64,000 nucleotides of DNA from Clostridia bacterium. Its GTDB lineage: Bacteria > Bacillota > Clostridia > Peptostreptococcales > Anaerovoracaceae. The notes below the pieces were generated by a model. That model did not search any database. It was not told the DNA's origin and saw only the letters and a list, made by a program, of their open reading frames with translations. Location of the stretch: assembly GCA_910575405.1 (NCBI GenBank), contig CAJTER010000003.1:1-64000 (forward strand). The letters run 5' to 3'. The position numbers and the translations under genes are program-made. This document shows positions 26,528 through 42,906 of this stretch, piece after piece (the first letter of the stretch is position 1; the number at the start of each line of letters is the position of its first letter).

Positions 26528-27457
26528 ATGAATGACATTTTAGTAGTGGCAGGCCCTACTGCTGTAGGTAAAACGGAATACGCCATTTCCCTGGCACAGT
26601 ATTTTAGTGGTGAAATTGTCTCCTGTGACTCCATGCAGCTTTACCGCTTCATGGACATCGGAAGCGCAAAACCGACAGCAGAAGAGCGCAGAGCAGTCCG
26701 GCATTATCTGGTGGACGAAATGGACCCCAGAGAGCCCTTTTCCGTAGCCGAATATCAGGGAAGAGCCAAAGCAGCCATCCTGGAAATTCTGAAAAAAGGA
26801 AAGCTTCCTGTAATTTCAGGAGGCACGGGACTTTATCTCAATTCTCTTCTTTATGAAATGGACTTCAGCGCACCGCCCAGGAAGGACGACTACCGCCAAA
26901 AGCTGGAGGAGCTTTCCAAAATACAGGGTAAAGAAGCGCTCCACCGGCTGCTAAAGGAAAAGGATCCGGCAGCGGCAGAACGGATACATCCCAATAACAC
27001 AAAAAAAATTATCCGGGCCTTGGAAACCATCGAAATATCCGGTCAGGCTGTACGCCCATTTTCCAATGTGAACATTCCTTCCAGAGAATATCGGCCCATA
27101 CTCATCGGGCTCACAAGAAACCGGGAAGAGTTGTATGCGCGTATTAACGACCGAGTGGATATCCTGATGGAACGCGGTCTGCTTTCAGAAGTTCAGTCTC
27201 TGTTTGAGATGGGGCTGACCGAAGAGCACATTTCCATGAAAGGCATCGGCTACAAGGAGCTGATTCAGCATCTTGAGGGGAAATGGGAGCTTTCTGAGGC
27301 AGTTTCTAAAATCAAGCAAAATACCCGGCATTATGCAAAAAGGCAGTTAACTTGGTTCCGCAGATATGATACAATGAAATGGTTTAATTTATCGGATTAT
27401 GAAAAGAAAGAATTAGCTTTAGAGGATATTATTTCATGGGTAAGGAAAAACAGGTAA
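26528..27457 (+). CDS. miaA: tRNA dimethylallyltransferase MiaA
   Basis: A 309-residue enzyme that adds the isopentenyl group to A37 of tRNAs reading UNN codons. The P-loop is VVAGPTAVGKTEYA; SCDSMQLYRFMDIGSAKP, ISGGTGLYLNSLLY and RLTWFRR-type QLTWFRRYD follow. I chose ATG 26528, which gives the standard N terminus; an upstream TTG in the tandem repeat is unlikely. It follows mutL in the common Firmicutes order, but hfq, which often comes next, is absent; the next gene overlaps it by 22 nt. Confidence 0.93.
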   Translation: MNDILVVAGPTAVGKTEYAISLAQYFSGEIVSCDSMQLYRFMDIGSAKPTAEERRAVRHYLVDEMDPREPFSVAEYQGRAKAAILEILKKGKLPVISGGTGLYLNSLLYEMDFSAPPRKDDYRQKLEELSKIQGKEALHRLLKEKDPAAAERIHPNNTKKIIRALETIEISGQAVRPFSNVNIPSREYRPILIGLTRNREELYARINDRVDILMERGLLSEVQSLFEMGLTEEHISMKGIGYKELIQHLEGKWELSEAVSKIKQNTRHYAKRQLTWFRRYDTMKWFNLSDYEKKELALEDIISWVRKNR

Positions 27458-28572
27458 TTGTCCATAATAAAAGTGACCGGCCGGATAATGTGGTAATGAA
27501 GGAGCATGAGATCATCTGGCAGTGTCAGGAAATCGAGCAGCAGCTTCCCGCTTTTTTAAACCATTTTTTCACCTATCTGCGGGGAAATGTTCTGCCAATG
27601 TCGCGCCTTGCATATCTTCAGGATATCCGCTTTTTCTGTCATTATCTTGTGGAGAAAACTGCGCTTACCGAGGCAGCTGAAATGCTGGAGCTCTCCCTTA
27701 AGGATTTTAACAGGCTGAATTCCTCAGATATCAACGAGTTTCTTGATTACTGCAGGAGATATGAAGTGGAGTCGGATGGCAGTATAACGGTTTATGAAAA
27801 TAATAATAAAACCCTGGCACGGAAAAAATCGTCGGTTTCCGTCATGTTCAAGCAGCTTTACAGAGAAGGTCTGATGCAGGACAATATTACAGATGGCTTT
27901 GATCCCATCCGGGTGCCAAAAGCTTCTGAGCGTGAAATCAAAGCGCTTCAGGACGACGAGGTTATGATCATGCTGGATGCCGTTTCTACAGGGAGCCATC
28001 TGACAAAGAAAGAACGGGAGTTTTGGGAAAAAACGAAAAAACGGGACAAAGCCATTCTCCTTGTTTTTTTAACTTACGGCCTTCGCCTTTCGGAGCTGCA
28101 GCAGCTGAATGTTTCGTCCTTTAATTTTTCAAGAGGCGAGTTTACCATTTACCGCAAGAGGGGAAAGGAGTCTAAAATGCCCCTCAACCAGTCCGTTACA
28201 GCCGTCCTCTCTGATTACATAGAGCATGAACGTGCGGCAGAGGAAAAAATTCAGGAGGAACACAAGGACGCGCTGTTTCTTTCTCTTCAGGGGCGGCGTA
28301 TGACTGAGCGGCAGATCCGGGAGCTTGTAAAAAAGTATACATCCATCGGCCTTTCCACTTCAAGGGATGCAGGCTACAGCCCCCACAAGCTGCGGGCGAC
28401 TGCGGCCACCAGTCTCATCGGGCGCGGCAATTCAGTCTACGATGTTCAGGCTCTATTGGATCATGAACAAGTGACTACAACACAGCTTTATGCTGCTCAT
28501 AAAATGAATATAAAGCGGGATCTGGTAAAGGACATGGAATGGGAACTAGAACGAACTGGAAAGAAAGATTGA
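27436..28572 (+). CDS. tyrosine recombinase / integrase family protein
   Basis: A 378-residue recombinase. An N-terminal SAM-like DNA-binding domain (LPAFLNHFFTYLRGNVLPM, TLARKKSSVSVMFKQLYREG) precedes the catalytic domain, where Arg in LTYGLRLSEL, Lys near YRKRGKESK, His-x2-Arg in YSPHKLRATAATSL, His in LLDHEQVTTT and Tyr in TQLYAAHKM are visible. It is longer than XerC/XerD (about 300) because of insertions. The start overlaps the end of miaA, so it is translationally coupled to a tRNA modification operon. It may be a chromosomal Xer-type protein or an old integrase. Confidence 0.85.
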   Translation: MGKEKQVIVHNKSDRPDNVVMKEHEIIWQCQEIEQQLPAFLNHFFTYLRGNVLPMSRLAYLQDIRFFCHYLVEKTALTEAAEMLELSLKDFNRLNSSDINEFLDYCRRYEVESDGSITVYENNNKTLARKKSSVSVMFKQLYREGLMQDNITDGFDPIRVPKASEREIKALQDDEVMIMLDAVSTGSHLTKKEREFWEKTKKRDKAILLVFLTYGLRLSELQQLNVSSFNFSRGEFTIYRKRGKESKMPLNQSVTAVLSDYIEHERAAEEKIQEEHKDALFLSLQGRRMTERQIRELVKKYTSIGLSTSRDAGYSPHKLRATAATSLIGRGNSVYDVQALLDHEQVTTTQLYAAHKMNIKRDLVKDMEWELERTGKKD

Positions 28573-28659: not shown

Positions 28660-30213
28660 ATGAAAAAGAAGCAAATTATCTGCTTTTGCGCGGCATCTTT
28701 ACTGACGATACATTGCGCAGCAGCCCCATCTGCTTTTGCAGCAGATTATTCTTTTATACAAAAAATGGAACCTCTCTTGTACGACAGCGAATTTCAGACT
28801 AGGCTGGCTGAGGAGCAGGATGTACAGGAGGGAATGCCGGATACCAGGTGGTTTGATCCGGAGGATCAGAGGCAGGAATATGAGATTTCCACACAGGAAG
28901 AGCTTTTGGGTCTTTGCGAGCTGGTCAACAAAAGACAGATCAGCTGGGACGGCAGCAAGGTTTATACATTTGAAGGAATCGTCATAAAACTGATGGATGA
29001 TATTGAACTTACCTGCGACTGGACGCCTATAGGGACTTCGGATATGTATGCTTTTGAAGGTATCTTTGACGGAAACGGCCATACCATTTCCGGCCTTCAT
29101 ATCGAAGATCCGGGCAGCGAATATCAGGCCTTTTTCGGATACCTGAAGGGCACGGTAGAAAATTTAAAGCTGCAGGGCCTGGTCACTACGGAAAGCGATT
29201 TTACAGCAGGCCTTGCCGCTTGCATGGGCGAATCGGCTATTGTTCGAAACTGTACAGCTGATGTAAAGGTTACGGGTAAAGATAAAGTGGGTGGTATTGC
29301 AGGAGAAAGCTCGGGCCTTATTACAAGCTGTCTGAACCTCGGCAGCATCAAAGGCAATGTAAAAACAGGCGGGATTGTTGGAGAAAACTGGAATGGTATT
29401 GTCCGGGAATGCGGCAACGAAGGAACCATTTCCTCTGATGGAAAAAGCGTGGGACCATATGGCACTGGCGGCATTGCCGGAAGATCCGTGGCCAGCAGCG
29501 CAGTAATCGAAAAATGCTATAACAAAGGAAACGTTTCCTCTGAAAACGAATGTACTGGCGGCATTGCAGGCTATGCAGGCGCACGCGGCTCCACCATAAG
29601 CAGCTGTTACAATGCGGGAAGCATTATCGGCTATGAAGGAGCTTCCGTTGGCTATGCAGGCGGCATTGCGGGGAGCATCGGAGACTACGGTATCATGTTG
29701 AAAAATTCCTATAATGCGGGTTTTGTGAAAAAAGGAGCATATACTGGCGCCGTATTAGGCAATTATGCAGCTGGATCCGGACAGCAGCTTGAAACTTACA
29801 TTTCAAACAACTACTATCTGGATGGTTCCGCACCCCTTGCTGTAGGAAAAGAACGGGATACCAAAGGAAAGCGCAATTATGAAGACGCCATTAAAGTAAA
29901 ATCTTCCGGCGATCTGAGAAGCGCCCATATGGCATCTGTTCTGGGACCTTCCTACCGGGTAGATATAGGAGGAATGCACAGCATTAATAACGGGTTCCCC
30001 ATACTGAAATGGCAGGAGGCTTCCGGTATCAGCATGGATGAGCTGCTCCAGCAGATGGAAATTCCCTATAGAGAGGAGTTCCGGACGTTTTTTGCAAAAT
30101 ATCCTTATGGCAGCTCGCAGGGCAGTCTGTTTTTAAAAGTGGCAAACCCTCAATTTTTCTTTGAAGAGATTTCCTCTGATTTGAGAAAACGCGATGAAGC
30201 CGGAACACATTAG
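28660..30213 (+). CDS. secreted protein with GLUG-type repeats
   Basis: A 517-residue protein with a signal peptide (MKKKQIICFCAASLLTIHCA to SAFA). The region of about residues 115-380 carries repeated GLUG-like units: GGIAGESSG, GGIVGENWNG, GGIAGRSVAS, GGIAGYAGAR, GGIAGSIGDYG, each followed by a C or S-Y-N motif such as KCYNKGNVS and SCYNAGSII. Such repeats form beta-helical surface domains in IgA1-protease-like and adhesin proteins. There is no LPXTG anchor or peptidase motif, so it is probably secreted. The role is unknown. A TATAAT at 28625-28630 may be its -10. Confidence 0.75.
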   Translation: MKKKQIICFCAASLLTIHCAAAPSAFAADYSFIQKMEPLLYDSEFQTRLAEEQDVQEGMPDTRWFDPEDQRQEYEISTQEELLGLCELVNKRQISWDGSKVYTFEGIVIKLMDDIELTCDWTPIGTSDMYAFEGIFDGNGHTISGLHIEDPGSEYQAFFGYLKGTVENLKLQGLVTTESDFTAGLAACMGESAIVRNCTADVKVTGKDKVGGIAGESSGLITSCLNLGSIKGNVKTGGIVGENWNGIVRECGNEGTISSDGKSVGPYGTGGIAGRSVASSAVIEKCYNKGNVSSENECTGGIAGYAGARGSTISSCYNAGSIIGYEGASVGYAGGIAGSIGDYGIMLKNSYNAGFVKKGAYTGAVLGNYAAGSGQQLETYISNNYYLDGSAPLAVGKERDTKGKRNYEDAIKVKSSGDLRSAHMASVLGPSYRVDIGGMHSINNGFPILKWQEASGISMDELLQQMEIPYREEFRTFFAKYPYGSSQGSLFLKVANPQFFFEEISSDLRKRDEAGTH

Positions 30214-30274: not shown

Positions 30275-31567
30275 ATGCAGAAGAATACGTATAAGCTATT
30301 ATCCGAAGAACTCCATATTGAGCCCAAAGTGCTAGATCTGGTCATCTCTGCTGAGGAGGATATCAAGGGAGAATTTGCACAGCTCGACGATATTATGGCA
30401 TTTAACCAATACAAGGTTCTGACCGCATTTCAGAAAAACCGTATCAGTGATACACATTTTTTCTGGAATACAGGCTATGGGTATGATGATGCAGGAAGGG
30501 AAGCTCTGGAAAAGGTGTACGCTGATATTTTTAAGACAGAGGCGGCATTAGTACGCCCCATTATTGTCAACGGAACCCACGCTCTGACCCTGACCCTGAC
30601 CGGTATACTCCGGCCGGAGGATGAGCTTATATACTGTACCGGTTCGCCTTACGATACATTGGAGGAGGTGATCGGAATCAGGGGAGAAGGGAAGGGATCT
30701 CTTGCGGAATTCGGCGTCTCCTACAAGCAGGTGGAGCTGACGCCTGATGGAAATATCGATCTGCCGGCTCTGAAGGAGGCAATTTCCCAAAAGACCCGCA
30801 TGGTTACAGTCCAAAGGGCCACTGGATATGGATGGCGGAAGGCCGTTACGATTGAACAGATTGAAGAATGGGCGACCTTTATACATGACATCAATCCAAA
30901 TATCATCTGTATGGTGGACAATTGCTATGGTGAATTTTTGGATATAAAGGAGCCGACAGAGGTTGGCGCAGATGTTCTTGCCGGATCCCTGATCAAAAAC
31001 CCAGGAGGCGGACTTGCCCTCACAGGTGGCTATATTGCAGGAAGGCAGGATCTGATCGATTCGATTTCTTATCGAATGACCTCTCCTGGAATTGGAGGAG
31101 AATGCGGCCTGATGTTTGGCCAGACGAGGACCATGTTTCAAGGCCTGTTCCTTGCTCCAAAAACAGTAAACGGAGCAGTGAAAGGCGCCGCCCTTTGCGC
31201 AAAAACCTTTGAAAAGCTGGGATATGAAGTTTGTCCAAAAGCAGAAGATAAGCGAAGCGATATCATTGAGGCGGTTAAGCTTGGCAGTCCTGAAGCTGTC
31301 GTGGCCTTTTGCGAAGGAATACAGGCGGCAGCTCCTATTGACGCTTATGTAAAGCCCATACCTTGGGACATGCCTGGATATGACGATCAGGTTGTTATGG
31401 CAGCAGGGGCTTTTGTCCAGGGTTCCTCCATTGAGCTGAGCGCTGATGCACCTATTCGGGAACCTTATATTGTTTATTTCCAGGGAGGGCTTACTTATGA
31501 GCATTCAAAATTTGGTGTCATTAAAGCACTTCAGACCTTACATGAACAGGGCCTGGTTTCTTTATAG
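30275..31567 (+). CDS. methionine gamma-lyase family (aluminium-resistance-like) PLP protein
   Basis: A 430-residue PLP-dependent enzyme of the YnbB/Met_gamma_lyase family. Visible are ALVRPIIVNGTHALTLTLTG, the catalytic Asp in ICMVDNCYGEF and the PLP Lys241 in GSLIKNPGGGLALTGGYI. Members are annotated as aluminium resistance proteins or cystathionine beta-lyase-like; the true reaction is uncertain. In Firmicutes this gene often lies downstream of miaA/hfq, as here. ATG 30275 follows AAGGACG. The length is typical. Confidence 0.85.
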   Translation: MQKNTYKLLSEELHIEPKVLDLVISAEEDIKGEFAQLDDIMAFNQYKVLTAFQKNRISDTHFFWNTGYGYDDAGREALEKVYADIFKTEAALVRPIIVNGTHALTLTLTGILRPEDELIYCTGSPYDTLEEVIGIRGEGKGSLAEFGVSYKQVELTPDGNIDLPALKEAISQKTRMVTVQRATGYGWRKAVTIEQIEEWATFIHDINPNIICMVDNCYGEFLDIKEPTEVGADVLAGSLIKNPGGGLALTGGYIAGRQDLIDSISYRMTSPGIGGECGLMFGQTRTMFQGLFLAPKTVNGAVKGAALCAKTFEKLGYEVCPKAEDKRSDIIEAVKLGSPEAVVAFCEGIQAAAPIDAYVKPIPWDMPGYDDQVVMAAGAFVQGSSIELSADAPIREPYIVYFQGGLTYEHSKFGVIKALQTLHEQGLVSL

Positions 31568-31699
31568 CAGAAGTTTTTCAGTGTGTAAGTAAATAATTGG
31601 AGGGTTTCCGGTATAAGCTATGGACAACCAATCGATTATTCTGGAGGCAGCAGAACTCTGCAGGATAAACCGCCAGAGCTTGTGCCAGAGCAAAAGGTT

Positions 31700-32437
31700 A
31701 TGGATAAACGCAAAAAAGATAGGATTCACAAAAAATTCAAACTGGTTAGTGCGATTTTAAAATTTGCACTGCTTCTGTTTGTTCTCGTTGGACTGCCGCT
31801 GTACATTTATTTTTATCAGCCTCAGCTTATTGAAAACATGTCCAGCATGGAAAATGTAAATGCATTTTTTCAGCAGTACAAGACACAGAGCATTTTCGTA
31901 TACATTGGCGCCCAGATCATCCAGATTGTCATCTGTGTTATACCAGGTCAGTGGCTTCAATTTGCGGCAGGTTATATGTACGGCTTCTGGCTGGGGTTTT
32001 TATTTTCACTCATCGGAGCAGCTGCAGGTTCTGTGATTACGTATTATCTGGCAAAGCTGCTGGGCAGAGATGCCATGCACCTGATTTTTGGAGAAGCGAA
32101 AATTAATGATTTTATCCACAAGCTCAACAGCAAAAAAGCTATTGTAGTCGTATTTTTGATTTTTCTGATCCCGGGGGTTCCGAAAGATTTATGTAATTAC
32201 GCTGCCGGAATTTCACAGATGAAGCTCAAGCCGTTTCTTTTGGTTTCCCTCGTGGGACGAAGCCCGGGTATGATGGGCAGCCTTTTGATTGGCAGACAGA
32301 TTGAAGCGGGGGATTATACAGGCGCGATTGTAATTGCTGTTATAGCAGTAATTTTATGTGTTGTGGGAATCATTATGAGAAAATATCTTACGAAATGGTT
32401 GGATCGGGTTTACAGCAAATTGTATCCGGAAAAATAG
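31700..32437 (+). CDS. TVP38/TMEM64 (VTT domain) membrane protein
   Basis: A 245-residue integral membrane protein with the VTT/SNARE-associated fold: hydrophobic helix 1, then VFVYIGAQIIQ-type region, CVIPGQWLQFAAGYMYGFWL, FSLIGAAAGSVITYYLAKLLGRD and FLIPGVPKDLCNYAAG. The family belongs to the DedA superfamily and is linked to lipid scrambling or membrane homeostasis. The start is uncertain: ATG 31700 or an in-frame GTG at 31682; neither has a strong ribosome binding site. A small membrane protein follows. Confidence 0.8.
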   Translation: MDKRKKDRIHKKFKLVSAILKFALLLFVLVGLPLYIYFYQPQLIENMSSMENVNAFFQQYKTQSIFVYIGAQIIQIVICVIPGQWLQFAAGYMYGFWLGFLFSLIGAAAGSVITYYLAKLLGRDAMHLIFGEAKINDFIHKLNSKKAIVVVFLIFLIPGVPKDLCNYAAGISQMKLKPFLLVSLVGRSPGMMGSLLIGRQIEAGDYTGAIVIAVIAVILCVVGIIMRKYLTKWLDRVYSKLYPEK

Positions 32438-32449
32438 GGAGCTATGAAC

Positions 32450-32710
32450 ATGAAAAAGAATATTAATTTTGTTTTGTACGCTATTGCATTAATCATAATT
32501 CTGATTCCTGTTGTAATGACCGAAGTTATAGGACGTCCTATCGGACAGCCATGGGAAAGCATCACTTTGTCTTTGGGACTGCTCATTCTCTTGGCAGGAA
32601 AAATAATTACCATCAGGCGAAAACGGACACAGACGGGAGAATCCGTTTTTCAGGATCTGATAATCAGTATCTGCTTGGTAGTAATGATCGGGTGGCTGTT
32701 TTTGCGGTAA
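32450..32710 (+). CDS. small membrane protein, three hydrophobic segments
   Basis: An 86-residue protein with hydrophobic segments NFVLYAIALIIILIPVVM, ITLSLGLLILLAGKIITI and LIISICLVVMIGWLFL. AGGGAG lies 8 nt before ATG 32450, so I prefer that start to ATG 32444. It begins 12 nt after the VTT gene and is probably in its operon. Its 3' end is followed within 8 nt by the first of several LexA-like boxes. Function unknown. Confidence 0.65.
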   Translation: MKKNINFVLYAIALIIILIPVVMTEVIGRPIGQPWESITLSLGLLILLAGKIITIRRKRTQTGESVFQDLIISICLVVMIGWLFLR

Positions 32711-32717
32711 AACTAGA

Positions 32718-32729
32718 GAACATATGTAC
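32718..32729. promoter_or_regulatory. LexA-like box A
   Basis: GAACATATGTAC is one base from the Gram-positive core GAAC-N4-GTTC. It is the most upstream of four such boxes before the LysM gene. Confidence 0.5.
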
Positions 32730-32738
32730 CTTCAAAAA

Positions 32739-32750
32739 GAACAAACGTTT
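32739..32750. promoter_or_regulatory. LexA-like box B
   Basis: GAACAAACGTTT differs from the box D sequence only at the last base. It lies about 20 nt upstream of the -35 element of the LysM gene. Confidence 0.55.
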
Positions 32751-32759
32751 AAAATCCTC

Positions 32760-32788
32760 TTGACAAAGAATGAATGTTCGTGTATGAT
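32760..32788 (+). promoter_or_regulatory. promoter of the LysM gene with LexA-like box C in the spacer
   Basis: TTGACA at 32760-32765, 17-nt spacer, TATGAT at 32783-32788. GAATGAATGTTC at 32768-32779, a degenerate LexA-like half-matching box, lies inside the spacer and would block RNA polymerase if bound. Confidence 0.75.
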
Positions 32789-32802
32789 AAAACCATATTC
32801 AG

Positions 32803-32814
32803 GAACAAACGTTC
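32803..32814. promoter_or_regulatory. LexA box D (perfect core)
   Basis: GAACAAACGTTC matches the GAAC-N4-GTTC core of Bacillus/Clostridium LexA sites exactly. It lies just downstream of the expected transcription start and before the ribosome binding site AAAGAGG. Confidence 0.8.
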
Positions 32815-32829
32815 AGAAAGAGGTATGCC

Positions 32830-33153
32830 ATGATAAAAATAGGAAAGAAAAAGTATATCATTAAATCTAAAAGCAGATTTCTTATTTTTATTATTGTAGC
32901 GCTTATGCTTGCCGCTGCAGCAGTCAGTGCTGTAATGACCCTGGCAGGTGTCAACAATGTTCTGGGAATGGCAAAAGAGGATGTTATAGAGATTGAGATT
33001 GAACCAGGCGATACCCTGTGGGATATTGCAGGCGAATATATGTCTCAGGAAACCGATCGGCGTAAAGCGGTTTACGTATTATGCAAGACAAACCATATGT
33101 CTGCTGCGCAGCTTTATGCAGGCCAGATTTTGAAAATACCCAAGGATCTTTGA
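32830..33153 (+). CDS. LysM-domain membrane protein, YneA-like SOS cell division inhibitor
   Basis: A 107-residue protein with one N-terminal membrane helix (FLIFIIVALMLAAAAVSAVM) and a C-terminal LysM domain (EIEPGDTLWDIAGEY, then KTNHMSAAQLYAGQILKIP). Size and plan equal those of Bacillus YneA, which blocks division during DNA damage and is repressed by LexA. The strong promoter with four LexA-like boxes, one perfect, supports the same regulation. In Bacillus, yneA is divergent from lexA; here no lexA is adjacent. The YneA call is inference from architecture plus control sites. Confidence 0.75.
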   Translation: MIKIGKKKYIIKSKSRFLIFIIVALMLAAAAVSAVMTLAGVNNVLGMAKEDVIEIEIEPGDTLWDIAGEYMSQETDRRKAVYVLCKTNHMSAAQLYAGQILKIPKDL

Positions 33154-33237: not shown

Positions 33238-33281
33238 AAGAAAAAATCCCGGGAGAATCGAATAACCTGGGATTTTTTCTT
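33238..33281. terminator. bidirectional rho-independent terminator
   Basis: AAGAAAAAATCCC-g-GG pairs with CC-t-GGGATTTTTTCTT around a 12-nt loop, with A and T tracts on both sides. It ends the LysM transcript on the plus strand and any transcript coming from the right on the minus strand. Confidence 0.85.
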
Positions 33282-33462: not shown

Positions 33463-33740
33463 CTATTTCGTGTCTATTTCTTTCTCATACTTTTCCACGT
33501 CCTGAATAACTAAATCCATAATTTCCCTGCCTTCGGCTCCTGCCAGATCCGAAATTTTATTTCTAACAGATAAACTTGCCTTTACAAAAGCGTCCCGTTC
33601 CGAATCAGTCAGTTCTTCCACTTTAATGTCCGGTTTCTTATCCTTAATTATATCGAACTTTTCTTTTAGAACCTTTTCCAGACATTCTGAGGCATAAGCT
33701 TCCATTTCCGCTTTGATGCTGTCGATAATTTGTTTATCTT
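33463..33740 (-). pseudogene. C-terminal remnant of a TRAP-type DctP substrate-binding protein
   Basis: The minus-strand frame encodes about 92 residues from about KQIIDSIKAEMEAYASEC to a natural stop (EKYEKEIDTK). The helical, Lys/Glu-rich pattern with KKPDIKVEELTDSERDAFVK resembles the C-terminal end of DctP periplasmic-type receptors of TRAP transporters (x-E-V-x-x-L-S/T-x-x-E-R-x-x-F). The N-terminal two thirds are missing, and the frame runs into a transposase fragment on the other strand. Neither dctQ nor dctM is present. The family call is by eye and moderate. Confidence 0.45.
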
Positions 33741-34102
33741 CCAAGAACAGAATTAAATTTCGCTGTCCCCTTGCAAGCAGAAAATACGGATGCTCATGCG
33801 AACATCCCTGCTCTGATTCCAAGTATGGAAGAACAGTTCACCTTGCCACAAAGGACAACCCCCGATTAATCAACATACCGCCCCGTGACAGTGACGAATG
33901 GAAAACGGAATTTAATGCAAGAACTTCTGTAGAACGTTCCAACAAACGTGAGAAATATGATTTCTTATTAGAAAACGGCAGACACCGCTCTACTAAGATG
34001 TGGTACTGCCGCCTCTATAACATCATGATGCTCCAACATCTTGATGCATGGGATTTGCCTTATGAATCCGCCCTGAGAAAGTTGATTCTGAAAACGACAT
34101 AA
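33740..34102 (+). pseudogene. 3' fragment of an IS transposase gene
   Basis: From about 33740 the plus frame reads SSKNRIKFRCPLASRKYGC, then the Cys/His segment CSCEHPCSDSKYGRTVH, RLINIPPRDSDEWKTEFNAR, TSVERSNKREKYDFLLENGR and a C-terminal MLQHLDAWDLPYES before a stop at 34100-34102. This is the C-terminal quarter of a DDE-type transposase of the IS1182/IS4-like kind, including the ERSNKR part of the last catalytic block. The N-terminal part is missing. The sequence is a remnant, probably joined to the DctP-like fragment by a deletion. Confidence 0.7.
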
Positions 34103-41784: not shown

Positions 41785-42906
41785 CTATTCAATGATAACG
41801 CCATCCTCATCAACCTCAAAATCCTCAGGAGGCTCCGGTATTTCACCAGCATCCGCTTCACCTTCTTCATCCATGGATGGAGCGGTCTTTAGGGTACTTC
41901 GCACCATCTCCTCTACCTTTTGCATGGTTTCCGGATTTTCGGTCAGATATTTTTTCACATTTTCACGGCCCTGCCCGATGCGGTTGCCGTCAAAGCTGTA
42001 CCAGGAGCCCGCCTTTTCGATGATCTTGGCTTCTACTGCGCAGTCCAGAACATCGCCTGAGCGTGAAATACCTTCTCCGTACATAATATCGAATTCTGCC
42101 TGCTTAAAGGGCGGAGCAACTTTGTTTTTTACGACTTTGACTTTTGTCCGATTTCCTAAAAAGTCATCGCCTGATTTGATGGAATCTACCCTGCGTACAT
42201 CGAGGCGCATACTGGAGTAAAATTTCAGCGCCCGGCCGCCTGTTGTTGTTTCGGGGCTTCCAAACATAACCCCTACCTTTTCACGAAGCTGGTTGATGAA
42301 TACAACGGCTGTGTTGGTCTTTTTGACAAAACCCGTAAGCTTTCGCAGCGCCTGAGACATGAGTCTTGCCTGAAGTCCCACATGGGAATCGCCCATTTCT
42401 CCCTCAATTTCCGCCTTAGGAACCAGCGCTGCCACTGAGTCTACAACGATGAGATCCAGCGCGCTGCTACGTACCAGCATTTCGCAAATCTCAAGGGCCT
42501 GCTCCCCTGTATCAGGCTGAGATACCAAAAGCTCATCCACGTTGACGCCCAGATTTTTCGCGTATTCCGGATCCAGGGCGTGCTCCGCATCAATGAATGC
42601 TGTCCTGCCCCCTGTTTTCTGCGCTTCCGCTATGATATGCAGCGTCAGCGTCGTTTTTCCGGAGGATTCAGGTCCAAAGACTTCGATGATCCTTCCTTTT
42701 GGAATACCGCCGATGCCAGTTGCCAGATCCAGGCTCATAGAACCGGTGGAAATCGCTTCGATATCCATCTTCGCCGCTTCATCCCCCAGCTTCATAACCG
42801 CGCCTTTTCCGAATTGCTTTTGTATCTGCTGCAGGGCATCCTGCAGAGCTTTTTCTTTATCTTCAACATTACTGATCGTCTTCTTTGCTGTTGTTTTTGT
42901 TGCCAC
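41785..42906 (-). CDS. recA: recombinase RecA
   Basis: A 373-residue strand exchange protein and LexA co-protease. Visible are Walker [10 protein letters not shown], the [20 protein letters not shown] core, [19 protein letters not shown], loop 2 [19 protein letters not shown] and a long acidic C-terminal tail ending [15 protein letters not shown]. Start codon is GTG at 42906 after GGAGGT. Its promoter carries a perfect LexA box at 42929-42940. It is followed by the DUF4317 gene and preceded by cinA, the common clostridial order. Confidence 0.97.

Follow-up and report, generated by a model that had tools for sequence, protein, structure and literature searches.

A conserved array of three LexA-like boxes before a yneA-like gene that lies apart from lexA

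The window analysed here, a stretch of 64,000 nt, contains a short gene whose 107-aa product is probably YneA-like and a putative SOS division inhibitor (Table 1). An N-terminal membrane segment and a C-terminal LysM domain within about 100 aa, as in YneA proteins, were both present: hydropathy peaked at 2.9 over residues 17-35, and the Pfam LysM model matched residues 57-104 with 31.5 bits. The NCBIfam YneA model NF010723 matched the product over nearly its full length (55.6 bits, E 4e-15) without reaching the cut-off of 60. The same model matched 13 of the 14 members of our alignment at E<=1e-5 (two of the rows were fragments of 60 aa), and a lexA-adjacent homologue in a Tissierellia MAG showed 37% identity to the 107-aa product. 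On these grounds the gene was named YneA-like. As for the other marks of yneA, LexA operators were found in the promoter at the sequence level, and adjacency to and divergence from lexA were not found at the window locus. The reference for YneA of B. subtilis is reportedly Kawai 2003.

On the 5' side there are a methionine gamma-lyase-family gene, which we take to be ynbB-type, a gene for a VTT-domain membrane protein, and an 88-aa membrane ORF for which neither Pfam (E<=0.001) nor NCBIfam (E<=0.01) gave a match. A tyrosine recombinase gene (27436-28572) lies between miaA and the lyase gene, as it does at several loci of the host's family; in many lexA-linked families such a gene is found 3' of yneA on the opposite strand. 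A GLUG-motif protein gene (28660-30213, 517 aa) lies between the recombinase and lyase genes. On the 3' side of the YneA-like gene the terminator scan listed none; by eye, a stem-loop with a T run was seen at about 33241-33279, and an open frame at 33713-34102 resembles a transposase remnant.

Table 1. Genes, promoter elements and LexA-like boxes at the locus (positions in the window)
Feature	Position	Strand	Remarks
Methionine gamma-lyase-family gene	30275..31567	+	Pfam Met_gamma_lyase 625 bits
VTT-domain membrane protein gene	31682..32437	+	Pfam VTT 96 bits; at the site taken by lexA in other families
88-aa membrane ORF	32444-32710	+	directly 5' of array
Extra upstream LexA-like box GAACATATGTAC	32718..32729	+	weak; 1 mismatch to GAACN4GTTC
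Box A GAACAAACGTTT	32739..32750	+	1 mismatch; 29 nt 5' of box B, just 5' of -35
-35 hexamer TTGACA	32760..32765	+	promoter match
Box B GAATGAATGTTC	32768..32779	+	1 mismatch; within 17-nt spacer, 8 nt from -35 start
-10 hexamer TATGAT	32783..32788	+	promoter match
Box C GAACAAACGTTC	32803..32814	+	0 mismatches (perfect); 5' leader, 35 nt 3' of box B
Probable ribosome-binding site AGAAAGAGG	32815..32823	+	sequence reading
YneA-like gene, 107 aa	32830..33153	+	N-terminal membrane segment ~17-40; C-terminal LysM 57-104

The earlier note had described four LexA-like boxes within 97 nt, and all four were recovered, starting at 32718, 32739, 32768 and 32803 with 1, 1, 1 and 0 mismatches. These were scored with the 12-mer GAACN4GTTC, which was adopted because the longer consensus CGAACN4GTTYG, scanned over the window, had no match at the locus. 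When the window was shuffled 1000 times with dinucleotides preserved, four boxes in 97 nt never appeared; at most one, two or three boxes fell within that width in 623, 372 and 5 shuffles, respectively. The total of sites with at most one mismatch in the whole window was unremarkable (25 vs 19.8 +/- 4.9 by chance). The promoter TTGACA-17-TATGAT at 32760-32788 matched the consensus in 11 of 12 positions and, as had been claimed, one box (32768) falls inside its spacer. Two other placements needed correction. The box said to lie just past the start does follow the likely transcription start but is still 15 nt 5' of the ATG (32830), and of the boxes said to lie near the 3' end of a membrane gene, box 32718 begins 7 nt past the stop of the 88-aa ORF and not inside it. 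Box 32718 (GAACATATGTAC) was the weakest of the four and was absent from the sister species G001, in which A, B and C were present and C was identical. The core of the array is the three conserved boxes A, B and C, with box 32718 as a weak fourth. Of 75 family loci, 6 had some further box in the zone of this fourth one, and in three of the 6 it stood 50-52 nt 5' of B; the background gave 0 sites in 5110 nt; neither figure is strong evidence.

The earlier statement that lexA is not adjacent was borne out: the genome has one LexA above the cut-off, on another contig (C28). It looks intact, with the expected cleavage site and Ser/Lys identified on visual inspection, and an intact-looking recA is present within the window (41899-42861). 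The genome search that had been proposed also returned further boxes. A single box precedes lexA (GAACATCCGTTT), single boxes precede recA, uvrB and ruvC, and the consensus match at the promoter of the YneA-like gene is common to these known SOS genes of the genome. Of 22 further box loci inspected in the genome, none carried three or more boxes in an array; at one of them a poorer second site lay at a distance of 39 nt. In the genome-wide scans single sites inside ORFs were not counted as operators. Exact GAACN4GTTC had 22 sites genome-wide vs 63 for the reversed pattern, and GAACRNNYGTTY gave 17/21 vs 45/50; the motif is depleted. For GAACN4GTTC the shortfall against the reversed control is about threefold, a pattern that would fit avoidance of stray LexA sites.

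Of 119 genomes in the host's family, 93 had the YneA-like gene in a protein search, at 98 hit places in all. Upstream regions were read at 90 of these (87 of the 93 genomes), leaving out two hit places of G068, one each of G021, G078, G098, G017 and G033, and the second of G111. Within 200 nt 5' of the gene three boxes were counted at 62 loci, four at 8, two at 16, one at 2 and none at 2. Start codons were set by rule, and ATG distances can shift between counts (e.g., in G047, G035 and G077). A box was called anchored if it fell within the spacer of a promoter that matched the consensus at 9 or more of 12 positions. On this definition box B was anchored at 77 of the 90 loci, and it began exactly 8 nt after the -35 start in 69 of the 77. 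The anchored promoters carried A+B+C in 61 cases, B+C in 12, A+B in 3 and B alone in 1. Box A stood at -26 to -33 relative to B in 64 of the 77, the positions taken being -28 to -32 (33 of the 64 at -29), and box C at +26 to +39 in 73, most often at +29/+30 or +34/+35. Mean column information over 68 aligned family promoters was 1.62 bits over the -35 (TT invariant, ACA near-invariant), 1.38 over B, 1.04 over the -10 and 0.62 over A; it was 0.32 over C, because the spacing of C varies, and 0.08 further upstream. The remaining 13 of the 90 promoters were unanchored, some with boxes shifted 3' of the -10. At two of these, L214 and L216, tandem boxes only 13 nt apart lie 3' of the -10, a different operator layout in a few family members.

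The relation to lexA was examined at 45 yneA-like loci from the rest of the host's order. Among them are a truncated locus (L289), one that is probably not yneA (L297) and one whose sequence begins 177 nt 5' of the gene (L266); the outside-family order hit G200 (contig edge) and weaker LysM hits were left out of the counts. lexA was divergent and adjacent in 36 of the 45, and in several of the 36 the methionine gamma-lyase gene stood before lexA. This lyase gene is the ancestral neighbour 5' of lexA/yneA. The divergent order was also found in four Clostridia MAG loci and in Paenibacillus. In the 36 lexA-linked loci B was anchored alike in 35, and A+B+C occurred in 32. Where lexA and yneA diverge, three boxes are the norm in this order, and three LexA sites upstream of lexA, in a divergent lexA/yneA-like pair, are published for C. 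thermocellum in the available extract of PMC8457756. Multiple boxes are not out of the ordinary for yneA, contrary to what the earlier note implied. What stood of the reading was LexA control of the YneA-like gene, for which the comparison gave strong support (B locked to the spacer at 77/90 loci, lexA and recA present, single boxes elsewhere in the genome); the unusual feature is the persistence of the array in a family where lexA is not adjacent.

In the host's family lexA adjoined yneA at none of 76 loci, the flanks covering about 2.5 kb or more except at contig ends. Where both genes were on one contig (G009, G060, G071, G077, G088 and G095, by eye), they were at least about 149 kb apart. 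Within the flanks fetched, the methionine gamma-lyase gene was 5' of yneA at 48 of the 76 family loci, and the VTT membrane gene was found at 48 of the 76 vs 0 of the 45 others, many with VTT between the lyase gene and yneA. Boxes at lexA promoters were counted for 31 of the 107 family genomes in which lexA was matched, among them the genome of the window: one box in 23, two in 5, three in 1 and none in 2. In 24 of the 31 the box overlaps the -35, reading GAACNNNNGTTTAC. At L156, the lexA of the sister species G001, no box with at most one mismatch was found in the 220 nt before lexA, so autoregulation may have been lost there or the start may be misplaced.

Taken together, an SOS promoter that carries three core LexA operators very probably drives a YneA-type membrane division inhibitor at this locus, and the array would descend from a divergent lexA-yneA control region. 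From the sequence, its conservation, the gene order and the presence of lexA and recA, we infer LexA binding at the boxes, extra tightness from A and C, and division arrest. In the undamaged cell, LexA dimers would occupy B (between -35 and -10), C and A. LexA at B would block polymerase binding directly, LexA at C would sit over the initial transcribed region, and LexA at A, just 5' of the -35, would abut polymerase on the upstream side; RNA polymerase would thus be unable to bind or clear. On DNA damage, RecA filaments would bring about LexA self-cleavage and the operators would be emptied, YneA would be made from the freed promoter, and septation would be delayed. With several operators, leakage would be lower and derepression would come later, once most LexA had disappeared. 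The tight or graded repression by multiple boxes that the earlier note had suggested may be of this kind. However, by analogy, more boxes need not mean more cooperativity. As far as the extracts of the two articles go, SOS boxes added upstream of E. coli PlexA led to a lower measured Hill coefficient (PMC5152588), and LexA of C. difficile was slowest to leave the recA, lexA and uvrB operators (PMC4234289). Therefore, the order of induction is not to be read from box number alone.

In the lexA-linked A+B+C loci outside the family box A reads AAAC..GTTC in 32 of 32, because its form on the lexA strand is GAAC..GTTT, abutting lexA's -35. In the ancestral divergent control region A would overlap that hexamer. 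At the 64 family yneA promoters the forms were GAAC..GTTT in 31, GAAC..GTTC in 22, AAAC..GTTC in 8 and other in 3. The form GAACAAATGTTT, very often seen at box A in family promoters, is contained in the recA operator on which C. difficile LexA was assayed (PMC4234289, from the extract available). Since A is mostly not in the lexA-facing form, it would have been kept and turned, or lost and regained, at yneA; lexA would have departed with a single operator of its own. It is possible, though by no means certain, that in the uncoupled family lexA kept one operator over its -35 and yneA kept or re-evolved a private three-operator lock, the upstream operator of which was turned and stays at about -29, whereas most other uncoupled lineages dropped it. 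A less likely account is that only B, with C, represses and that A, left over from the old lexA promoter, is neutral and has no effect on yneA. Nine outside-family loci had no lexA in the stretch; two were unanchorable and a third was L266, and in the six clearly uncoupled, anchored loci left, A was present in one and absent in five, and thus dispensable there. The position of A in lexA-linked loci, which fits lexA's own -35, agrees with this account as well. However, a passive remnant would be expected to have decayed, whereas A was kept in 64 of the 77 anchored family promoters at a nearly fixed distance with flanks near random, and was in the lexA-facing AAAC..GTTC form in only 8 of the 64.

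The two other points at which a different reading could enter are the repressor and the product. Binding of the boxes by another S24-type repressor, such as a phage or element regulator, could be imagined from the second, weak LexA-like match on C35 (22.8 bits, below the cut-off), but we regard it as very improbable: the motif also precedes lexA, recA, uvrB and ruvC in the same genome, and the array is family-wide and beside ordinary chromosomal genes. That the LysM protein is SOS-induced and cell-wall-binding, with a role other than division arrest, seems unlikely, if less so. LysM is a generic domain, the YneA function here is putative, and the product scored under the YneA equivalog cut-off (55.6 vs 60); against this, 13 of the 14 alignment members matched the YneA model, and size, domain order and the lexA-adjacent position are alike in related families.

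If the private three-operator lock at yneA is real, it would point to selection for a higher damage threshold or a later division arrest than for lexA and the repair genes, and no shared promoter would tie lexA and yneA together, unlike elsewhere. The point of interest is that the three-box array was kept as private yneA operators after lexA left, not the number of boxes. A search of the literature (open-licence PMC articles) found no paper on an uncoupled yneA with private operators. In the usual lexA-yneA arrangement it is hard to assign operators to genes; here lexA is gone and the third operator was kept, so the part of this operator in repressing the division inhibitor is directly testable. 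The case also shows that a physical link between lexA and the SOS division inhibitor, frequent among Gram-positives, is dispensable.

The comparisons with known systems are drawn from extracts of the articles cited. The closest is the Clostridium thermocellum pair Clo1313_1449/1450 (PMC8457756), which like our locus has a LysM YneA-like gene under LexA control with three sites, the control being predicted in our case. However, lexA and the yneA-like gene of C. thermocellum are divergent and share the region, whereas at our locus lexA lies elsewhere and yneA has the array to itself. YneA of Bacillus subtilis is a small protein with a transmembrane segment and LysM that is LexA-controlled and blocks division, to which our product is likened from its sequence; the B. 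subtilis gene adjoins lexA, whereas ours is unlinked and its family score is just under the cut-off (PMC8457756, PMC6851548). SosA of Staphylococcus aureus is likewise a single-TM SOS division inhibitor, a role that is putative here, but it is without LysM and its gene is linked to and divergent from lexA (PMC6851548). Outside this group, the recN promoter of E. coli carries three SOS boxes and thus, like ours, several LexA operators on one SOS promoter, although box sequence, gene and phylum differ; with its three boxes, recN expression is confined to damaged cells (PMC10714372).
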